DNA of 64,000 nt from positions 1-64,000 of the IMG/VR virus record IMGVR_UViG_3300034063_000546. One strand, 5' to 3'. Positions 16,060 to 30,536 of the stretch are shown piece after piece. Origin of the DNA: a virus. Made by a program: the position numbers and the translations under genes. The notes under the pieces were generated by a model. The model searched no databases. It was not told the DNA's origin and saw only the letters and a list, made by a program, of their open reading frames with translations. The stretch's first letter is position 1. Each line of letters begins with the position of its first letter.

Positions 16060-17481
16060 TCACATTAGGTTGGTTACCTTTACTCTTCTGTAGTAACGGT
16101 TTGCGTTTGCCTTGAGGCGTCCTAGACCCGCAGTGGTTCCCTCAGCGAATGGGTTGGCAACTAGACCATAACGGGTCTTAAAGCCAATCTTAGGCTGGAA
16201 GGTGTTCTCACCAACGGCACGTACCATTTGGAGAGGAACATATGGGCAATAGAACAGACCAGCATCGTAAGGTGAAGAACCCTTATAACCGACAACGTAG
16301 TACTGGTTAGCAGATACGTTTGCCGAATATGGGTCAATATATACACGATACTTGCCTTGGAGAACACCAGCGAAGGTGTTACCAGTGTCATCAACGTTGA
16401 GGTTAGCGTTGAGTGCAGGGGTGTAATCAAGAACACCTGCCATGGTGAGTGCCGAAGCAACGTCAGCAGAGCAGAGGATCATGTTACCCTTGCCACGACG
16501 AGTTCTCTGGGCGATAGCGTTTGCATCACGCTCGATCTGGAAGATCAGACCCTTGAACTTCTCAACTGACCAACGACCGTTGGAGTCAACGTCGAGGTCG
16601 AAAGTACCAGCGGTTGCAGTATTAACAGCAGCACCAGACTCAGCAATCTTGTAGATGGTACGAATAACTTCGCGGTTGATTTCAGCAAGAATCTCAGTTG
16701 AGAGAATGTTTGCTAATTCAGCCTCAGCATTCAGACCGTGGATTGCCTTGAGGTCTTGAGCGAGTTCTAGTGAGTACTCAGCTTTCAGAGCTCTTGACTT
16801 AGCGGTAACGGTGACTTTCTCGATCGAGAATGCCATCTGGTTGAACTGGTCGCCAGAGCCATCACCTAGGTCTTCTGCATAATCGGTACGCATACCCTGA
16901 CCAACAGGATATGTAGTAGCGGTTTGTGAACCTTCTGGGTTCAGGAGACCTGGGTTAGCAGCACTTGCGTGACCAGCGGTAGTACCGAAACCAACGGAAG
17001 CACCGTCAGAACCAGCAACATAAAGACCAGACTCAAGATCGAATCCGTCGTTCTGACCTGAATATGCGGTATTTGCTTCGTCGAAGAATGCTTCGCCGTT
17101 AGCAGCAGCATCCATGGTTCCGTACTTGGAACGCATTGCGAAGATGAGTCCAGTAGGACCGTTCATTGGTTGAACGCCTGCGAGGTCATAAGCGACCAGG
17201 TTAGGCATTGAACGTCTGATTAGGGAGATCAGAACAGGGTCGAAACCTGCGACAGGTGAAGAAGCAGCACCACCAAAACCAGCATTACCAGTGCTTGAGA
17301 AGGTGTTTACGGTTGGAGCTTCATAGAGAAACTGACGCTCTTCGCGGAGAGCGGTCTCTTGGTTCTCTAGCAGGATAGCGGTAACAGCTCTACGATGAGA
17401 ATCTTTGATTGGATCAAGACCTTCGTAATCGAGAACTGGACTCCACTTCTCCTGCAATTGTTCTGCATTGAACATTTGCAT
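16060..17481 (-). CDS. gp23: Major capsid protein gp23
   Basis: 473 residues (T4 gp23: 521, precursor). N-terminal FNAEQLQEKWSPVLDYEGLD, the block PNLVAYDLAGVQPMNGPTGL and the C-terminal YGLVANPFAEGTTAGLGRL are typical of T4-like capsid proteins. LYE-A at residues 52-55 fits a gp21 cleavage site, so the mature protein would begin near Ala55; T4 gp23 is cut at an equivalent place. The first ATG has AGAGG at good spacing; a second ATG two codons later is also possible. It sits directly after scaffold gp22 with a small AT hairpin between them and a strong terminator behind. Confidence 0.97.
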   Translation of the reverse strand: MQMFNAEQLQEKWSPVLDYEGLDPIKDSHRRAVTAILLENQETALREERQFLYEAPTVNTFSSTGNAGFGGAASSPVAGFDPVLISLIRRSMPNLVAYDLAGVQPMNGPTGLIFAMRSKYGTMDAAANGEAFFDEANTAYSGQNDGFDLESGLYVAGSDGASVGFGTTAGHASAANPGLLNPEGSQTATTYPVGQGMRTDYAEDLGDGSGDQFNQMAFSIEKVTVTAKSRALKAEYSLELAQDLKAIHGLNAEAELANILSTEILAEINREVIRTIYKIAESGAAVNTATAGTFDLDVDSNGRWSVEKFKGLIFQIERDANAIAQRTRRGKGNMILCSADVASALTMAGVLDYTPALNANLNVDDTGNTFAGVLQGKYRVYIDPYSANVSANQYYVVGYKGSSPYDAGLFYCPYVPLQMVRAVGENTFQPKIGFKTRYGLVANPFAEGTTAGLGRLKANANRYYRRVKVTNLM

Positions 17482-17523: not shown

Positions 17524-17541
17524 CTAAAAATCACTTTTTAG
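17524..17541 (-). other. AT-rich hairpin between gp22 and gp23
   Basis: Minus-strand CTAAAAA-GTGA-TTTTTAG, a perfect 7-bp stem spanning the gp22 stop. Too AT-rich for a strong terminator; it may protect or help process the gp23 message. Confidence 0.35.
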
Positions 17542-18637
17542 CGACTCTACCAAGAGTCTGAAGATAAGCTTCCATCATTGTCGAAACTGATTGAGTCTCT
17601 TCAGTAATGGTTTCTTCAGTAATGTGGTCAGAATCGTCTTTTTGAGCACCAGCATTTGATGGGAAGTATGATTCCCTCAGGGTTACTAGTTTCTCACGAT
17701 AGGTATCTTCACTATCAAACTCAACATTTTCGGCAAGAGAAGCGAGCTTGTCCTTCTGAGAAAGTGCAAGACCTTCAGCGACATCTGCAAAGATTACATC
17801 AGCAACTGACTCGGCTAATCTTCTATTAAGAGCAACATTCTTTTCGATTTGCTCGTTGAGTTTAGACTCCATTTCATCTAGTTTATCTACCATACTCTCT
17901 AAAACATCATATTTATCTTCAGGGATTGTTACATAATGATCTTCAAAAAGACTCTTCATTCCAGTGAGGAATGATTCAGTCATTTCGGTCTTCAGACCGT
18001 GCTCAACTGCGAGTTGATTTTCTTTAATCCACTCGTCAGCAACATACTCTAGGTAAGCATCAACTCTTTCAGTGAGTGATACTTTGATTTCTTCGATCTC
18101 TTCTACGATAGCAGCTTCATATGCTGCTTGCATCTCTTCTTTGACCGTGGCAACTTTTGCCTTGATTGCAGCTTCGAAGATTGTACGTGCTTTCTCTTGG
18201 AATTCCTCAGAAAGCTCTTCACCAGCAAGAAGGGCATTGACATCCTCTTCAATGTCATACTCTTCTTCGGTTTCTTCTTCAACAACTTCTTCAGCAGCCT
18301 CTTCAGACTCACCTTCAGCTTCGACTTCGGTTTCTGCTTCTGCTTCAACTACTTCAGCATCTTCCTCATCTTCTGCTTCTTCCTTCATCGCCTTCATAGG
18401 CTCAGCAGGCTTAGCACCACGATTAACGATATCATGAACAGTTTTGACTCTTGGTTCAGCAAGTTTTGCTGAATCGTCGTCTGCACGATAGTTATCTGGG
18501 GTAGGGCCACCTAAATCTTCCCAATTGCCAGTTTGCCCAGGTGCAATACCTGTGGTTAGCTTTGGCATTGGTTCGGCGGGGGCGGCTCCTTTGGTTACTA
18601 CGTTTTCCATTTCTTGTAAATTGCTACCAACGGACAT
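17531..18637 (-). CDS. gp22: Prohead scaffold core protein gp22
   Basis: 368 residues (T4 gp22: 269). A very acidic Glu/Ala block (about residues 85-135) is followed by long amphipathic helices (FQEKARTIFEAAIKAKVATV, LNEQIEKNVALNRRLAESVA), the architecture of the T4 scaffold that gp21 later digests to peptides. The C terminus MMEAYLQTLGRVAKK resembles cyanophage gp22. The N-terminal 80 residues hold three similar segments built around K-G/R-A-x-P-A-E-P-M, a small internal repeat. A perfect TATAAATA lies 30 bases upstream. Confidence 0.93.
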   Translation of the reverse strand: MSVGSNLQEMENVVTKGAAPAEPMPKLTTGIAPGQTGNWEDLGGPTPDNYRADDDSAKLAEPRVKTVHDIVNRGAKPAEPMKAMKEEAEDEEDAEVVEAEAETEVEAEGESEEAAEEVVEEETEEEYDIEEDVNALLAGEELSEEFQEKARTIFEAAIKAKVATVKEEMQAAYEAAIVEEIEEIKVSLTERVDAYLEYVADEWIKENQLAVEHGLKTEMTESFLTGMKSLFEDHYVTIPEDKYDVLESMVDKLDEMESKLNEQIEKNVALNRRLAESVADVIFADVAEGLALSQKDKLASLAENVEFDSEDTYREKLVTLRESYFPSNAGAQKDDSDHITEETITEETQSVSTMMEAYLQTLGRVAKK

Positions 18638-18677: not shown

Positions 18678-19328
18678 TTATAGATTTGAAAGAAATTCCT
18701 GGAACAATTCAATTTTGTTTTCCTGGAGTCTTTTTTCATCAACAAGAGTGTTGATTCTTTTCTGAGTTTGTTCGGCAAGTCTTTCACGAAGAATTCCACC
18801 TTCCCAAACCCACTCTTTACCTTCCATAATTCCCTGAACAAAAGCATCAGGAGCAGAAGGGTCGGCAACGATATCTGCCGCAGTTGCAAGCATGAAATCT
18901 TCGCCAACAATTTTGTGACCTTCGTTGGTCATTTTTAATGAACCAACACCACGAGAAGAAACGCCGAGACAAACACCTTCACCAATGAGGGACTTTGCAA
19001 TCTTACCCATTGGAGTTTCTAGGAGTTGTGCCTTACCAATAAAATTAGTTCCCTTTTGCTCAAGAGAAACAATCTTATGAGAAACACGGTCAAGATTGAC
19101 GGTAGGACCATCAGGATGGCCAAGTTCTCCTAAAGCACGACCTTTAGCAACAAAGGCTTCATTATATCTTTCGACTTCTCTTGAAAGAGTTGCCATTGGA
19201 TACATTCTTCCATTGCGATTGCAAATATCACCTTGAAGGAAAATACCCTCAATATACATTTTCTTTTCAGCACCTTTTCCTTCGGTGATGAATTTTACCT
19301 GTTGTACTTCTTCTGTGATGAGTTTCAT
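18678..19328 (-). CDS. gp21: Prohead core protease gp21
   Basis: 216 residues (T4 gp21: 212). Serine protease that cleaves head precursors after Glu in I/L-x-E motifs. The His-containing LGELGHPDGP (H71) and the Ser-containing LGVSSRGVGS (S124/S125) are the two catalytic segments of this family. The N terminus starts MKLITEEVQQVKFITE and the C terminus NKIELFQEFLSNL. It lies between the gp67-like core gene and gp22, as in T4. Confidence 0.95.
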   Translation of the reverse strand: MKLITEEVQQVKFITEGKGAEKKMYIEGIFLQGDICNRNGRMYPMATLSREVERYNEAFVAKGRALGELGHPDGPTVNLDRVSHKIVSLEQKGTNFIGKAQLLETPMGKIAKSLIGEGVCLGVSSRGVGSLKMTNEGHKIVGEDFMLATAADIVADPSAPDAFVQGIMEGKEWVWEGGILRERLAEQTQKRINTLVDEKRLQENKIELFQEFLSNL

Positions 19329-24389: not shown

Positions 24390-24620
24390 TCACCAGTCAG
24401 GATATTCCCACTTTATTATTCCCCTTGGTCTCTTTCTAGTTTCTGTAGTCCTCTTAACAGTACATTCTTTGCATTCATAAGAATATGCAGATGGAAAAGA
24501 ACCTCTATCCTTGCGAGTTAAGTAAAAGTCTTCTAATAAATTTTTAACTTTTCCACAAACTCTACATCTCCTATCGAAAAATAATAAATGTTCTAATTCT
24601 ATCTCCTTATCTAAATCCAT
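24390..24620 (-). CDS. Small zinc-ribbon protein
   Basis: 76 residues from the ATG at 24620, which overlaps the gp17 stop (TGATG); the longer frame needs GTG. Two CxxC pairs, CRVCG and CKEC, 26 residues apart from first to third Cys, with the connecting FYLTRKDRGSFPSAYSYE, form a four-cysteine zinc site. The same layout opens many phage HNH endonucleases, but no HNH core follows. Coupled to the large terminase; HNH proteins often accompany terminases, so a DNA-binding helper in packaging is possible but unproven. Confidence 0.7.
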   Translation of the reverse strand: MDLDKEIELEHLLFFDRRCRVCGKVKNLLEDFYLTRKDRGSFPSAYSYECKECTVKRTTETRKRPRGIIKWEYPDW

Positions 24621-26314
24621 CACATGTAGTCCCACATGTAGGACCTATCCCCATATTCATCAACATTCCATATTTCCAAAGTTTCCTGTCTATTTGATTT
24701 GCTTGCAATCATCCAACGATCACCAGTATCTTGATCAATAATACTTTCCATATCATCTAAACCATCTGAAAGAAATCCAAATGGTGACATATCTTGTTCT
24801 ATCTGATTTTTTTGCTCCTCATAAATTCTTTTTCTTATATCATTGTCTGTCATCTCTTTAAAATAGTCTTGAGCAACAAGCCATGCAAAAATAACCAAAC
24901 ACATTGCTAAGTCATCATTGCAACCTTCTTCTGCTTCGAACGATCTATTTTTTTGTATAAATGTTGTCAATTCTGAAATAACATCATAATCATAAATCAT
25001 CAACTTATCATCTTCAATAAGAGTTTTCAAGTTGGAGCATCCTAATTTTTTAACGGATGCAGTCATTCGAACTCCCAGCTGAGATTTCTTGCCACTAAAT
25101 CCCGAACCAACAATCTGTCCCGCCCTACCTCTCATAGAGCACATAAGAATGTTGTCATATTCTAAATCAAAGTGAAGAATATTTGATACTTGGTCCCCAA
25201 TATCATTTACTTCAATTAAAACCCAAGAATCATTATAACCTTTTGCTACTTCATGTATGATACTTGGAAATAGCATTGGTTTGATTTCATTATTTTTATA
25301 CTTACCAACAACTCGATAAGGAAACTCTGTAATATCAAAGATTACAAATGCAGAATAGTCATTGCCAATTCCACGAGCCACATCGACAGTCATTAAATAG
25401 TTGTGCTCTTCTATTGGTTCTTCATAGATATCAAGACCTTTATTTCTTTTTATTGGGTCATTATATACTAAAGTTTTTAACTTACTTGGATTAACTAGAG
25501 TATCAACAGATCCTAAGAATTCACACTCGAACTCAACTTTAAACTGTTGTTCTGAGGTGTTAGCAATCGTCTGCTCTTTCCATACAGCGTCTCTACCAGG
25601 TACTTCGGACCAATGAACGTCTGTTGGCACATATTCATTTCTACCGCGTTCAGAGTCATGCCACATACGGTAGAAGTGATTCATACCGCGTGGTGTAGAA
25701 ACAATAATTACCTTTGTGCTTTGTCCAGAAGAAATAGTAGGATAAACAGAGGCAAAGAAGTCATCAGCAATGTGATTCGGGATGAAAGCGAACTCGTCAA
25801 GAAAGATGATATTATAGGATCCGCCTCGGACAGCAGATGAAGAAGTAGAGTTAGCCGAAATCTTGGAGCCATTTTCTAGTTCTAAAGATCCTTTATTCCA
25901 TGATATGATACCCTGTTGCATCCATTTAGGTAAGTTTTCATAAGCAAGTTGTAATCTTTGAAGTAAGTCTCTTGCTGTAGATGCTTTGTTCGCTAGAATA
26001 GCTATATTAACATTATCGTTGAATACTGCATAATGTAACAAATATGAAACACAAGTCGTAGATTTACCCGTCTGGCGGGGCATCTTACAAATATTAAATC
26101 TGTTCTTGTGGAAATTATCAATTAATTTTTCTTGAAACGGATACATCTTAAATGGCACAAGACCGTGATCCAGAGAAACAATTTTAATATAATTTCTGGC
26201 AAAATAAACAGGATTTTCTTTACACTTTAAGAACTCAATAATTTGTTCTTCGGTAAATTCAATTTGTGTATTTGCTTTTTTTAGATTAGGATTACCAAGA
26301 TAAACTTCACTCAT
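24620..26314 (-). CDS. gp17: Terminase large subunit gp17 (packaging ATPase-nuclease)
   Basis: 564 residues (T4 gp17: 610). ATPase domain: Walker A CKMPRQTGKST at about 76-86 and Walker B IIFLDEFAF at 169-177, with coupling motif VIIVSTPRG. The C-terminal RNase H-like nuclease begins at LMTVDVARGIGNDYSAFVIF and includes the acidic EEGCNDDLAM. It pumps DNA through gp20 and cuts the concatemer by headful. It stops 4 bases from the upstream virion gene and overlaps the zinc-ribbon gene. Confidence 0.97.
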   Translation of the reverse strand: MSEVYLGNPNLKKANTQIEFTEEQIIEFLKCKENPVYFARNYIKIVSLDHGLVPFKMYPFQEKLIDNFHKNRFNICKMPRQTGKSTTCVSYLLHYAVFNDNVNIAILANKASTARDLLQRLQLAYENLPKWMQQGIISWNKGSLELENGSKISANSTSSSAVRGGSYNIIFLDEFAFIPNHIADDFFASVYPTISSGQSTKVIIVSTPRGMNHFYRMWHDSERGRNEYVPTDVHWSEVPGRDAVWKEQTIANTSEQQFKVEFECEFLGSVDTLVNPSKLKTLVYNDPIKRNKGLDIYEEPIEEHNYLMTVDVARGIGNDYSAFVIFDITEFPYRVVGKYKNNEIKPMLFPSIIHEVAKGYNDSWVLIEVNDIGDQVSNILHFDLEYDNILMCSMRGRAGQIVGSGFSGKKSQLGVRMTASVKKLGCSNLKTLIEDDKLMIYDYDVISELTTFIQKNRSFEAEEGCNDDLAMCLVIFAWLVAQDYFKEMTDNDIRKRIYEEQKNQIEQDMSPFGFLSDGLDDMESIIDQDTGDRWMIASKSNRQETLEIWNVDEYGDRSYMWDYM

Positions 26315-26317
26315 AAT

Positions 26318-27748
26318 TTAGTAAATCTCCCTCCACTGAAGAGCAGCAGCAACGCTAGCAGTGGCATTACCAGTAGTAGTGATGGTTCTTACAACAAGCA
26401 CATAAATTTCAGAGTTTGATGAATCTATATTTTGAACAATAATATTTTTCTTTGCCTGACTTAACGTACCAGAAGCAACTGGTGAAAGTGAGTTTTGTGA
26501 TGCACCAGAAGGAACATAACCAGATGCAAAAACATCACCATTATTGTAAGTTGTTGCATTAATACAAAACTCAACACCACTATTATCAGAAGCAGAAGTC
26601 CAAGTTAAAGTTCCCGCATTACTCAAATAAGCAGAACTTGGAAGTTTTATAACTTTATAAACAATACTATTTGTTTCACAGAATAATGAAATATTATTCA
26701 ATTTAACTGATATTCTATTTGGATATCCCTGAAAAATATTTTTGAGACGAATGGCAACCAAAGGAAGTTCTGTTCCTGCTGGTGTTGGTGTGGTTCTTGT
26801 AGCAGTCATTGTATAAGCAAAGTCAATACCACTTTCTACATATCCACCTTCTGACATTACAGAAGAACAAATCTGATCAAATGATGCTCCAATACCTACA
26901 CCAGTATTTCGGAGTTCGCAACGAACTGGTAGGTTTGGATTTGCAATATAAACTGTGCTCTGATAGTTGGAATGGTTGAATTCGTGTGCGGTGATGAGTT
27001 GTCCATTATGAGCAAATCCACAACGAACTCTACCAACACCTAACCACTGAAAATCTATAAATGCAAGTTGAGTTTTTGTAATATCTAAATTGAACCCAGA
27101 AGTTCCCGTTCCATCACATTTATCTCTGTTCCATTGTGATTGTGGAATCCTGGTTTCGGTTGCAATACCACTTACAAAAGTTCTGATTACCCAATTGTTT
27201 GTTCCAATACCAGTATTTATTCCATCAGAAGTATTAAGACCCACCTGTTCAAAATAAATTCCGTCTCTATCATCAAAATATCCAGTTCTTTTAGTTGCAT
27301 TTCGTTGAGGAGCATAGAAGTTAAAAGAACTAAAAATTAGTTGTCCTTTTCCTGGTTGATAGTGATGATAAAACTTCGTTTGATGAACACTAAATGCAGT
27401 TGTTCCAATACCAGTTTGTAATCTTGCACACGCTTGGTTTTGCAAAAATGATACTGTTGAACCTGCACCAGAAACACTATCCAAAAAGTTTGGGTCAATA
27501 GCATATAAGTGCTTGTAGTCGCCAAGAGTAAATGGTTCAGAAACTCTACTCCTACCAAATGCATCAACAGCATTTGTATCTGGGTTGATAGTAATAAGAG
27601 TATCTGATGAAATTCCAACAGTTCCAGTAACTGGAAATGGGTTGTCAAGTGTAACTACCTCGCCATTTTTATTGGCGATCATATTAACTTCAAAAAGAGT
27701 TCTCTCTTGATTTAAAAAATCTTGAGTACTTTTATTAAATTGTGCCAT
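26318..27748 (-). CDS. Cyanophage virion structural protein
   Basis: 476 residues, placed between the gp17 gene and the capsid-targeted small protein. The region VDAFGRSRVSEPFTLGDYKH carries the DAFGRxRVSxP pattern found in many phage structural and fibre-like proteins. The rest is beta-rich: FYHHYQPGKGQLIFSSFNFY, GYFDDRDGIYFEQ and a C-terminal domain with alternating Thr/Ser/Ala and AALQWREIY at the end. It is likely a surface or head/neck protein; the precise location cannot be read. It is not part of the T4 core, but it is common in cyanomyoviruses by my recollection. Confidence 0.7.
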   Translation of the reverse strand: MAQFNKSTQDFLNQERTLFEVNMIANKNGEVVTLDNPFPVTGTVGISSDTLITINPDTNAVDAFGRSRVSEPFTLGDYKHLYAIDPNFLDSVSGAGSTVSFLQNQACARLQTGIGTTAFSVHQTKFYHHYQPGKGQLIFSSFNFYAPQRNATKRTGYFDDRDGIYFEQVGLNTSDGINTGIGTNNWVIRTFVSGIATETRIPQSQWNRDKCDGTGTSGFNLDITKTQLAFIDFQWLGVGRVRCGFAHNGQLITAHEFNHSNYQSTVYIANPNLPVRCELRNTGVGIGASFDQICSSVMSEGGYVESGIDFAYTMTATRTTPTPAGTELPLVAIRLKNIFQGYPNRISVKLNNISLFCETNSIVYKVIKLPSSAYLSNAGTLTWTSASDNSGVEFCINATTYNNGDVFASGYVPSGASQNSLSPVASGTLSQAKKNIIVQNIDSSNSEIYVLVVRTITTTGNATASVAAALQWREIY

Positions 27749-27751
27749 AAA

Positions 27752-28060
27752 TCACTGACCCCAAGACAATCTCTCTGGTTGATATCTTTGTGCGTTTTTA
27801 ATTCTTGAAGTATTTACCTGATTTGGATAAACGTTATGAACGATTGCTCCAGGATATTCTCCTTGGATTTGTTCTGCAAGTTCATTTTTGGGAAGCATCT
27901 TGCCTTCCACTTCCAAACGATACATCTTCCCTTCCCAAACAACGTCGGCAAAGAAAGACTCGGTTGCTTGTTCTGGTTGAGAGGAACCTACATTTAGAGT
28001 TCCATTGAAATCACCATTGATAGTGATACTTTCTGAAATAAATTGTTGAAAAGATTTCAT
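27752..28060 (-). CDS. Putative internal head protein with T4-type capsid-targeting N terminus
   Basis: 102 residues. The N terminus MKSFQQFISES matches, position by position, the T4 capsid-targeting sequence of internal proteins (MKTYQEFIAEA), including the I-x-E-(A/S) gp21 cleavage site after residue 10. After cleavage a 92-residue mature protein would remain: acidic first, then SFFADVVWEGKMYRLEVEGK, a small beta fold. In T4, such proteins enter the prohead core, are trimmed by gp21 and are injected with DNA. It lies beside the 682-residue protein that carries a related KTFQQFMED segment. Confidence 0.6.
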   Translation of the reverse strand: MKSFQQFISESITINGDFNGTLNVGSSQPEQATESFFADVVWEGKMYRLEVEGKMLPKNELAEQIQGEYPGAIVHNVYPNQVNTSRIKNAQRYQPERLSWGQ

Positions 28061-28061
28061 T

Positions 28062-30110
28062 TTAGTTACAGTTCCAACGACGTAGTGCTTTGTTAATTCT
28101 TGAATCTGGGTCTCTTGCAGTTTTTGCAGAAGTCAGTTTTGATTTCATGCCTTTCATTCGACGGCAGAAGTTAGCACGGCGTTTCGCTCTTTTACCTTTT
28201 GGTTTCTTCTCAGTTACTGCAGTCTGAAGTTTTGAACCAGGATTCTCACGACGATAAGCATCTACTGCTGCTTGACTCAATCCATCAGTTTTATCCTGAC
28301 GATTGACTTTCTGCCAATCTTCCATAAACTGTTGGAAGGTTTTTAAGTCTGGTTCATAATGTGCAACCTGCATCTCTTTTTTAGGTTCTTTTTTAGCAAG
28401 TGGTGAATTGATTCCTTGTCTAATCTGTTGATATTTTTGATCTATTTTTCCAGCAGCACCAGGATTCCCTTGCTTCAGTCTATCAACATCTTGTGGAGTC
28501 ATTCCACCCATACCTGTTGTCTTTTTACCACCAATTTCAAAACTAGGACCTTCACCAAGTAAGTCACTACCAATACCTTTAGTTGGTTTTAATGGTTCTG
28601 GTTTGATGATATCAATAAACTCTGCGTAATGATTTCCATTAGCATCTTCAATAGATACGCTCTCCTTATTCATTTCACCACTATCAACATAATCTGCTGC
28701 AGTGTCGATGTAATCAGCTGCTTTTGTAATCTTTGACTGAACCCATGCTTCTATCTCACCTTCACCTTTCTTCATTTTTTTCTTAAGTCTATTTGCAGCC
28801 TTAATGATTGTTGAAAGTTCTGAACGAGCCATTGAATACTCGTGGTCATAGGCTTCATTAGCAGGATGGACCGTTGCAATATTAAATTTTTCTTGATTTG
28901 ATGGTTCGTATGGTATTGAAAACATGGACCAATATTTTGGACCATATCTGCACTCACGCATCTTTTCCATTTTTTTGCACTTTGGACAATATCTCATTTC
29001 ATTTTCAAAAATTGGACCATCCCAATCATATGCAAGTGCATTAGTACTCTCTGATTTTGTTCCCCAGTTATCAGCACCTTTTTTGCGGCATTGAACAAGT
29101 GCTCCAGATGCATATGCACTTGGCCAAACCTTAAATCTTGCTTTTACTTTGTGATAACAGGCATCTTTGTTACCACTACCTTTGCCTGGTTTATCTTTCG
29201 ATGCTTCGTTGAGTTCCATTGCTTCTTTGATTCCTGGTTCTGCTTTGACGTAATTTTTATCTTTTTTGCCTTTAGCAAAAGTTGGAACATTTGTTGGTTT
29301 TGCTGCTCCAGATTTTTGTTGCTGCCCCTTATCTTTTTGACGCTTACGGCGAATTGCTGATCTAATTAACGCTTCACCTTTTTTACCTTTTTTCTTTAAA
29401 GACTTTAATCTTCCGCTACTAAAACATTTAGGAGTTTTAGTTTCACCTGGTTCATTTGCACATGGAGAACCATCTGCCTGAACCCATCCTGGTTTTCCAC
29501 TTTTAGATTTGGAACCTTTAAACCAATGGTGAAGGGTTCCTTCATTAATCCAATCATCTGGAGTTTTTTGATGCTTATCAACAAATGCATTATGCAATTG
29601 TTTAGCAGTCATATCATGCTTTTTCATAATTTTTCTCATGAGACCATCAATAGAATCATAAGAAGTATCATCTAATTTTTTTAATCCTGATTCGAGTTCT
29701 TCAACAGCATCATCCTCACAACCACAATGCTCCTTTACATCTTTAAATTTCTTATGATGTTTTTTAGCATCTGCCTCCATTTTTTTCAAACGAGTATAAT
29801 AATCTGGAATTTCATCTAGATGCTGAAGAGCAATATCTGTTGCAAGATCTTTATCCTTTGTGTGTTCATGCTCGATTGGAATTCCCATTTCAAGTTGCTT
29901 TTTTATAAAAGAAACTTCAAGGCGATGTTTCTTTGCAATTTGTTCAACTGTCTTATGGGACTTTACTTCGTGCATTTCATTGAATGGAGATTCGGATTTA
30001 GTCTCTTCACCACGTTGTCTTTTTTTACGAGCAGCACAATGAGCCTTTTGAGAAAATCCACTAGGATTATCACAATTTATTGATCTTTTATATTTGTCAG
30101 ACCAACTCAT
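28062..30110 (-). CDS. Mosaic, Lys-rich virion-type protein with several short conserved modules
   Basis: 682 residues, very basic. It is a chain of short Cys/Lys modules: NCDNPSGFSQKAHCAARKKR at 9-28; TKDKDLATDIALQHLDEIPD with YYTRLKKME (DUF5661-like) around 85-115; PGWVQADGSPCANEPGETKT with KCFSSGRLKSLKKKGKKGEA (DUF5872-like) around 205-250; ACYHKVKARFKVWPSAYASG around 315; a CPKCKKMEKMREC zinc knuckle around 375; KTFQQFMEDW at 590-599; and FCRRMKGMKSKLTSAK near the end. Three gp21-type sites occur (INE-G, IKE-A, LNE-A). It is probably a head or internal DNA-associated protein. Module names are from memory. Confidence 0.6.
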   Translation of the reverse strand: MSWSDKYKRSINCDNPSGFSQKAHCAARKKRQRGEETKSESPFNEMHEVKSHKTVEQIAKKHRLEVSFIKKQLEMGIPIEHEHTKDKDLATDIALQHLDEIPDYYTRLKKMEADAKKHHKKFKDVKEHCGCEDDAVEELESGLKKLDDTSYDSIDGLMRKIMKKHDMTAKQLHNAFVDKHQKTPDDWINEGTLHHWFKGSKSKSGKPGWVQADGSPCANEPGETKTPKCFSSGRLKSLKKKGKKGEALIRSAIRRKRQKDKGQQQKSGAAKPTNVPTFAKGKKDKNYVKAEPGIKEAMELNEASKDKPGKGSGNKDACYHKVKARFKVWPSAYASGALVQCRKKGADNWGTKSESTNALAYDWDGPIFENEMRYCPKCKKMEKMRECRYGPKYWSMFSIPYEPSNQEKFNIATVHPANEAYDHEYSMARSELSTIIKAANRLKKKMKKGEGEIEAWVQSKITKAADYIDTAADYVDSGEMNKESVSIEDANGNHYAEFIDIIKPEPLKPTKGIGSDLLGEGPSFEIGGKKTTGMGGMTPQDVDRLKQGNPGAAGKIDQKYQQIRQGINSPLAKKEPKKEMQVAHYEPDLKTFQQFMEDWQKVNRQDKTDGLSQAAVDAYRRENPGSKLQTAVTEKKPKGKRAKRRANFCRRMKGMKSKLTSAKTARDPDSRINKALRRWNCN

Positions 30111-30122
30111 TGAAAAAACACA

Positions 30123-30536
30123 TTACTCTTTATTATTTAGAAAACCTTGTTTAAGTAGTTTTGACAAATCGGCAGTTGATCCAACAAATAGTGCATTATT
30201 GTTAGTAACATTTGTTGTTTTAACCTTATCTTCTTCTACTTCCTTAAGTTTCTTTTGAAGGTCAATCAACTTATCAGTTGTATCAGCAACACTTTTAATG
30301 AGTTGTCCAGCAACTTCATATGCCCTAGGACTACCACCTTCTCCCGCAAGCTCCATAATGCCATTGATGGCCTCTTGACCTTTTTCAATCAAAGAATACA
30401 AATTGGCACGAGTATATTCATAATCTTTTTTAATATCATCTTTATTTCCACCAACAATTTCAACATCTGTTGGTTGTTTTTCAACGATGCTAGAATCTGT
30501 ATTAAAGGTCAAATCTAAATTTTCATATCCAGGCAT
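30123..30536 (-). CDS. gp16: Terminase small subunit gp16
   Basis: 137 residues (T4 gp16: 164). The central helices DYEYTRANLYSLIEKGQEAI, GSPRAYEVAGQLIKSVADTT and DKLIDLQKKLKEVEED match the T4 pattern ([44 protein letters not shown]). The C-terminal NNALFVGSTADLSKLL corresponds to T4 NATVFMGSPTELMDEI. It recognises DNA and stimulates gp17. It lies between gp15 and the 682-residue protein; in T4, 16 is directly before 17, so three genes are inserted here. Confidence 0.93.
   Translation of the reverse strand: MPGYENLDLTFNTDSSIVEKQPTDVEIVGGNKDDIKKDYEYTRANLYSLIEKGQEAINGIMELAGEGGSPRAYEVAGQLIKSVADTTDKLIDLQKKLKEVEEDKVKTTNVTNNNALFVGSTADLSKLLKQGFLNNKE

Follow-up and report, generated by a model that had tools for sequence, protein, structure and literature searches.

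A small protein of a T4-like cyanophage with a probable T4-type capsid-targeting leader, and the occurrence of this leader on unrelated cargo

We consider it probable that a 102-aa protein encoded by a T4-like cyanophage is packaged by a capsid-targeting sequence (CTS) of the T4 type and is processed by gp21. The gene lies in the window, i.e. the whole 64,000-nucleotide stretch of the virus record IMGVR_UViG_3300034063_000546 that was analysed here, and the features of interest are collected in Table 1, where a slash marks the position of a cut as it does in the text. The short N-terminal leader of this protein appears to behave as a portable signal for capsid targeting and gp21 processing. 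This reading is supported by a constant leader in front of unrelated cargo, by the conservation of the residues that are critical in T4 (positions 4, 7, 8 and 10) and by an excess of A, S or G at P1', as well as by the presence of an S77 protease and of the gp23 site FLYE/A in the window and by the enrichment of leader proteins in virion proteomes.

Table 1. Features of the window that bear on the leader and on its predicted processing
Feature	Position	Strand	Evidence and remarks
gp23 residues 51-55, FLYE/A	17317..17331	minus	aligned to the T4 gp23 maturation site FLTE/A; gp23 Pfam E 1.7e-149
gp22-type scaffold (T4_CASP)	17531..18637	minus	Pfam E 3.6e-80; predicted docking partner of the leader
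gp21-type prohead protease (Peptidase_S77)	18678..19328	minus	Pfam E 3.6e-36; predicted processing enzyme
phrog_1645 virion structural protein, no leader	26318..27748	minus	E 2e-123; constant downstream neighbour by synteny
Predicted mature 92-residue protein (SITING...SWGQ), phrog_1742 domain	27755..28030	minus	profile match E 2e-41, alignment
Beta-beta-alpha-beta core, residues 33-80, confidently modelled	27821..27964	minus	AlphaFold2 models
Leader codons 1-10, MKSFQQFISE	28031..28060	minus	predicted CTS with a predicted gp21 cut behind E10; residue roles from T4 (PMC9026906)
Basic 682-aa multidomain protein (DUF5661, DUF6321)	28062..30110	minus	pI 9.5; directly upstream of the 102-aa gene
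Internal leader-like LKTFQQFMED, D at position 10	28317..28346	minus	just before DUF6321 in the 682-aa protein

The gene and its leader

An open reading frame of 102 codons with an ATG start was found at positions 27752-28060, as a sequence-only reading of this DNA had claimed, and it runs on the minus strand, which that reading did not give. The protein starts with MKSFQQFISES, and the 92 residues counted after E10 agree with the length that had been given for the remainder. The likeness to the T4 leader at nearly every position was likewise confirmed: MKTYQEFIAEA, the N-terminus of both IPII and IPIII of T4 (read from NC_000866), is identical at 6 of 11 positions and the other five are conservative (S/T, F/Y, Q/E, S/A and S/A), and the N-terminus of IPI (MKTFKEFTSTT) matches at 5 positions. 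The leader has an aromatic residue at positions 4 and 7, a hydrophobic residue at position 8 and E10.

The protein is a member of phrog_1742 (E 2.1e-41, residues 1-101 of the protein against 1-106 of the 108 profile positions), a family that has no function assigned to date and whose alignment contains many residues that are invariant across cyanophages. A Pfam search with the protein gave no domain match. The computed pI of the mature part is 5.0, i.e. it is acidic, as opposed to the basic internal proteins of T4 (pI 9.0-9.7).

Head-maturation proteins and the proposed mechanism

The window is T4-like, as its gp21, gp22 and gp23 genes are recognised by Pfam and its terminase genes by Pfam and PHROGs. 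According to a review (PMC9026906), the first 10 residues of IPIII are enough for packaging, and mutagenesis of the leader assigns residues 4 and 7 to targeting and residues 8 and 10 to processing. The leader positions that are conserved here are the same four. The review proposes the CTS, a concept known from T-even phages, as a general mechanism of T4-like phages.

The maturation sites of gp23 could be aligned between T4 (FLTE/A), the window (FLYE/A), S-SKS1 (FLSE/A), S-SCSM1 (FLAE/A), S-SZBM1 (ILTE/A), S-CREM2 (LLTE/A) and Syn33 (ILNE/T). T4 and the six cyanophages have the core [FIL][LI]xE in common, which is followed by A in 6 of the 7, and the predicted leader site FISE/S matches this core.

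By analogy with T4, F4 and F7 of the leader would dock the protein to the prohead core, which is built from the gp22 scaffold, and the gp21 of the phage would then cut after E10 at F-I-S-E/S, a site of the same class as FLYE/A of gp23; a protein of 92 residues would stay behind in the head along with the DNA. The protein would subsequently be ejected with the DNA, and our leading guess is that parts of the basic multidomain protein next to it would accompany it into the host. If the protein is packaged, its injection is likely, judging from the T4 precedent.

We regard it as very unlikely that the leader targets the protein and stays uncleaved, so that the full 102-aa form is packaged. Targeting and processing are indeed separable in T4, where a D in position 10 abolishes processing and leaves targeting intact (PMC9026906), but E10 is invariant in the 51 relatives described below and among the leader ORFs of four genomes, and A, S or G are preferred at P1'.

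Controls and relatives

IMG/VR was searched with a degenerate DNA pattern for MK[ST]FxxFIxE, in which residues 4, 7, 8 and 10 are fixed, and at least 120 loci matched, as opposed to 0 matches in IMG/VR for a pattern of equal composition in scrambled order. With a looser motif, counted in the window and in three complete cyanophage genomes (S-CREM2, S-SCSM1 and S-SZBM1), 9 matching starts were found, as compared with 1.4 on average and 6 at most when the motif was permuted 300 times. These two controls rule out a chance resemblance. The 127 leader matches correspond to 116 distinct 30-nt DNA sequences, so the constraint acts on the peptide, and a copied DNA cassette was rejected as the source of the leader.

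Relatives of the mature domain were sought in IMG/VR with a 95-residue query, a composite of the protein from L133 and S-SCSM1 gp30, that begins at residue 12; as the query lacks the leader, the relatives were not selected on it. The leader nevertheless stands at the true N-terminus of all 51 unique relatives, E10 is present in every one of them, and nearly all have F4, F7 and a hydrophobic residue at position 8. The sequence-only reading had named homologues that lack the leader and are non-virion proteins as a finding that would refute it; the relatives all keep the leader. Two unique sequences, L281 and L298, looked leaderless, but in both a second small domain precedes the domain as its fusion partner and has its own leader at the N-terminus. 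The protein of L232 starts with MSKSFKQFLSEG.

The leader on unrelated cargo

Leader proteins with a length of 40 aa or more numbered 138; without their leaders they fell into 55 sequence clusters, and the cargo includes cytidylyltransferase, GNAT acetyltransferase, HNH nuclease, ADP-ribosyltransferase and DUF6267. Residue 11 had no part in the search pattern; A, S or G occupies this position in 27 of the 55 clusters versus a background of 22% (p = 1e-5), and A by itself is found in 17 of them (p = 6e-8); such an excess is expected for the P1' position of a gp21 site.

Leader genes also occur in tandem, five in L167 and four in L178. The respective regions (L167:5912-9422 and L178:142-1752) consist of small genes with a common leader and differing downstream sequences, and they look like head-cargo islands. 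Another leader-tagged protein (L181:6037-6816) has an ART-PolyVal ADP-ribosyltransferase domain (E 1e-23) and is a functional parallel to Alt of T4.

Among the 16 large contigs that bear a leader, 9 contain the S77 protease and 2 more contain the T4 portal; neither was found in the other 5, all of which may be fragments. One of these 5, the 132-kb contig L150 with its leader gene, may be a fragment or may come from a different phage group with a similar leader. A search of seven leader contigs for the gp23 family gave no match, and as the controls were likewise without a match, this result says nothing about the contigs.

Genomic neighbourhood

In the window the gene is located between gp16 (30123-30536) and gp17 (24620-26314), and the same neighbourhood, with varying details, is found in S-SKS1, S-CAM9, Syn33, S-SCSM1 and S-SZBM1. 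The end of the gp17 gene is overlapped by the gene of an 81-aa endonuclease VII-like protein (24390-24635; phrog_4723, E 1e-35). The start codon of the 102-aa gene directly follows the stop codon of the 682-aa gene (28060 versus 28062), so the two genes are probably co-expressed.

The 682-aa protein is a mosaic, and several of its stretches recur as leader proteins in their own right: DUF5661 in L103, L127, L088 and L144, residues 132-277 in L106, residues 422-484 in L109, and DUF6321 in L126 (69% identity over 87 residues). The corresponding neighbour proteins of S-CAM9 and S-SCSM1 in turn contain an embedded relative of this 102-aa domain, and that of S-SCSM1, gp29, which holds a paralogous copy of the domain, was detected in the virion by mass spectrometry. 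These findings suggest that the 682-aa protein may be a packaged multidomain precursor, and this basic mosaic is a possible polyprotein that is cut in the prohead. Sites of the type [ILVMF]xE/[AGS] were counted in the multidomain neighbours and no single protein was significantly enriched (4 in the window protein versus 2.0 expected, P 0.13), so it is no more than a suggestion that the 682-aa protein is cut. The internal leader-like segment of this protein carries the D10 that blocks processing in T4 (PMC9026906).

The fixed synteny and the wide conservation would be expected of a core or assembly component no less than of a defence effector. We give considerable weight, somewhat below an even chance, to the reading that the protein is packaged by its leader and is a core component of the head or its assembly, or a partner of the basic protein next to it, rather than an effector that acts on the host. 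Such a role would agree with the fixed site between gp16 and gp17 and the same two neighbour genes in all five of the above phages, with the conservation of phrog_1742 across cyanophages as opposed to the fast-changing internal proteins of T4, with the location of an acidic protein next to a basic one, and with the presence of a phrog_1742-like domain inside the neighbour protein in S-CAM9 and S-SCSM1. However, many proteins with the same leader are enzymes without an obvious role in assembly.

Fold of the mature domain

For the window protein and a divergent family member, the AlphaFold models agree on the beta-beta-alpha-beta core, and the region that follows the leader is modelled with low confidence. 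When these two phrog_1742 members are compared with the PDB, T7 Gp2 (4lk0_M) comes first or close to first, with weak Foldseek scores (E 0.1 and 0.43, target TM 0.69 and 0.61) and VIA Z scores of 4.8 and 5.0 (rmsd 2.5 and 2.6 over 49-50 residues) that are tied with those of unrelated small folds. No match above Z 5 was found in the fold search of the PDB, and the search of PDB chains by sequence gave no relative at E < 0.5. A Gp2-like fold of the mature domain is thus only a lead from the models. It is tempting to speculate that the injected domain would bind the RNA polymerase of the host, as T7 Gp2 does, and the RNA polymerase-binding protein YkzG is also among the matches; we nevertheless hold this very unlikely, since the match scores are tied with those of ribosomal proteins that have the same small arrangement and sequence comparison points to no PDB relative.

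Leader proteins in virion proteomes

Leader-motif N-termini were compared with the published mass spectrometry lists of S-CREM2, S-SCSM1 and S-SZBM1, which differ in depth. Virion detection is given for 52 of the 219 S-CREM2 proteins (PMC10665884, Table 3), and the phage has exactly four leader-motif ORFs, all of which are listed there as virion proteins (p = 0.003): gp6 (SAM hydrolase/lyase), gp13 (unknown), gp14 (kinase) and gp154 (cytidylyltransferase). The listed virion proteins of S-SCSM1 include the NMNAT gp91, whose N-terminus is MKSFLQFLKEAA, and the cytidylyltransferase gp140 of S-SZBM1, also detected in the virion, starts with MRFRQFIIEA, a variant that is one residue shorter. Pooled over the three phages, 5 of 8 leader proteins were detected in virions versus 1.5 expected (p = 0.008). 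In their paper (PMC10665884) the authors of the S-CREM2 study left open whether the enzymes are virion cargo or a contamination by highly expressed proteins, and the leader favours virion carriage.

Two S-CREM2 proteins deserve a comment of their own. The leader-tagged virion protein gp6 (L206:3837-5081) has an S-adenosylmethionine lyase domain (PF23780, E 2e-19) and is a candidate injected anti-restriction enzyme. The virion protein gp12 (L206:7704-10313) had no Pfam match at E 0.01 and has a leader-like RFASFMAEA at residues 18-26; its annotation as Cas9 looks doubtful.

The claim of the sequence-only reading that the N-terminus is a CTS with a gp21 cleavage site has gained from the constancy and modularity of the leader, from the P1' preference, from the presence of gp21, gp22 and gp23 and from the other leader proteins in virions; as regards the 102-aa protein itself it is weakened in that the published virion lists include neither of the direct phrog_1742 homologues, S-SCSM1 gp30 and S-SZBM1 gp191. 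Another leader protein, S-SZBM1 gp192, is also absent from its list, which comprises 30 proteins only. Of the two homologues gp30 is predicted to give few good tryptic peptides and gp191 should give several. The flanking neighbours of the gene have virion-detected homologues, i.e. gp29 and gp31 in S-SCSM1 and gp190 in S-SZBM1.

The shared N-terminus could in principle be a feature of translation start or folding, or could be left over from gene shuffling, and have nothing to do with the capsid, and leader genes are short, shuffled and often adjacent, so the leader could spread with gene duplication. We find this highly improbable in view of the diversity of the DNA that encodes the leader, the conservation of the T4-critical residues and the enrichment in virion proteomes.

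Comparison with known systems

The leader can be compared with known packaging systems of T4-like phages. The resemblance to the T4 internal proteins IPI, IPII and IPIII lies in the 10-residue N-terminal leader with F or Y at position 4, F7, I8 and E10, in the small residue 11 (IPII and IPIII), in a short mature protein and in a T4-like phage with gp21, gp22 and gp23. On the other hand, no similarity was noted past the leader, and the 102-aa protein is acidic and not basic. Furthermore, its gene is widely conserved at its place between gp16 and gp17, and the protein is known here from sequence, its homologues being absent from two virion lists.

The virion enzymes of cyanophages (S-CREM2 gp6, gp14 and gp154, S-SCSM1 gp91) have the same kind of leader and belong to T4-like cyanophages, but they are large, they have been detected in virions and their cargo is unrelated to the 92-residue domain. 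Alt of T4 is a packaged ADP-ribosyltransferase that is processed by gp21. Alt and the polyvalent proteins of phages are likewise packaged cargo cut by the prohead protease, and one of the leader proteins from IMG/VR has the ART-PolyVal domain; unlike these, the 102-aa protein has no Pfam domain.

The CTS is known from T-even phages. Among the covered titles and passages of the openly accessible journal literature we found no paper that applies the concept to cyanophages or states that they have a CTS, and the string MKTYQEFIAEA was not found.

A broader reading, which we put slightly short of an even chance, is that a single short leader would be the general signal by which marine T4-like phages load their heads. 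The proteins packaged in this way would form a large, reshuffled repertoire, including SAM lyase, kinase, NMNAT, ADP-ribosyltransferase, acetyltransferase, HNH nuclease and many proteins of unknown function. Some of them would be encoded in tandem arrays, and others would be made as multidomain precursors, from which gp21 may release several parts within the prohead; the pair of the 102-aa protein and the adjacent 682-aa protein would be one example. The leader can serve as a sequence rule that predicts which proteins are loaded into the heads of marine T4-like phages and are probably injected. It offers an explanation for the enzymes that are repeatedly seen in cyanophage virions (NMNAT, kinase, SAM lyase). 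Dozens of uncharacterised proteins from viruses that are very abundant in the ocean also become candidates for early-acting factors through their leader.
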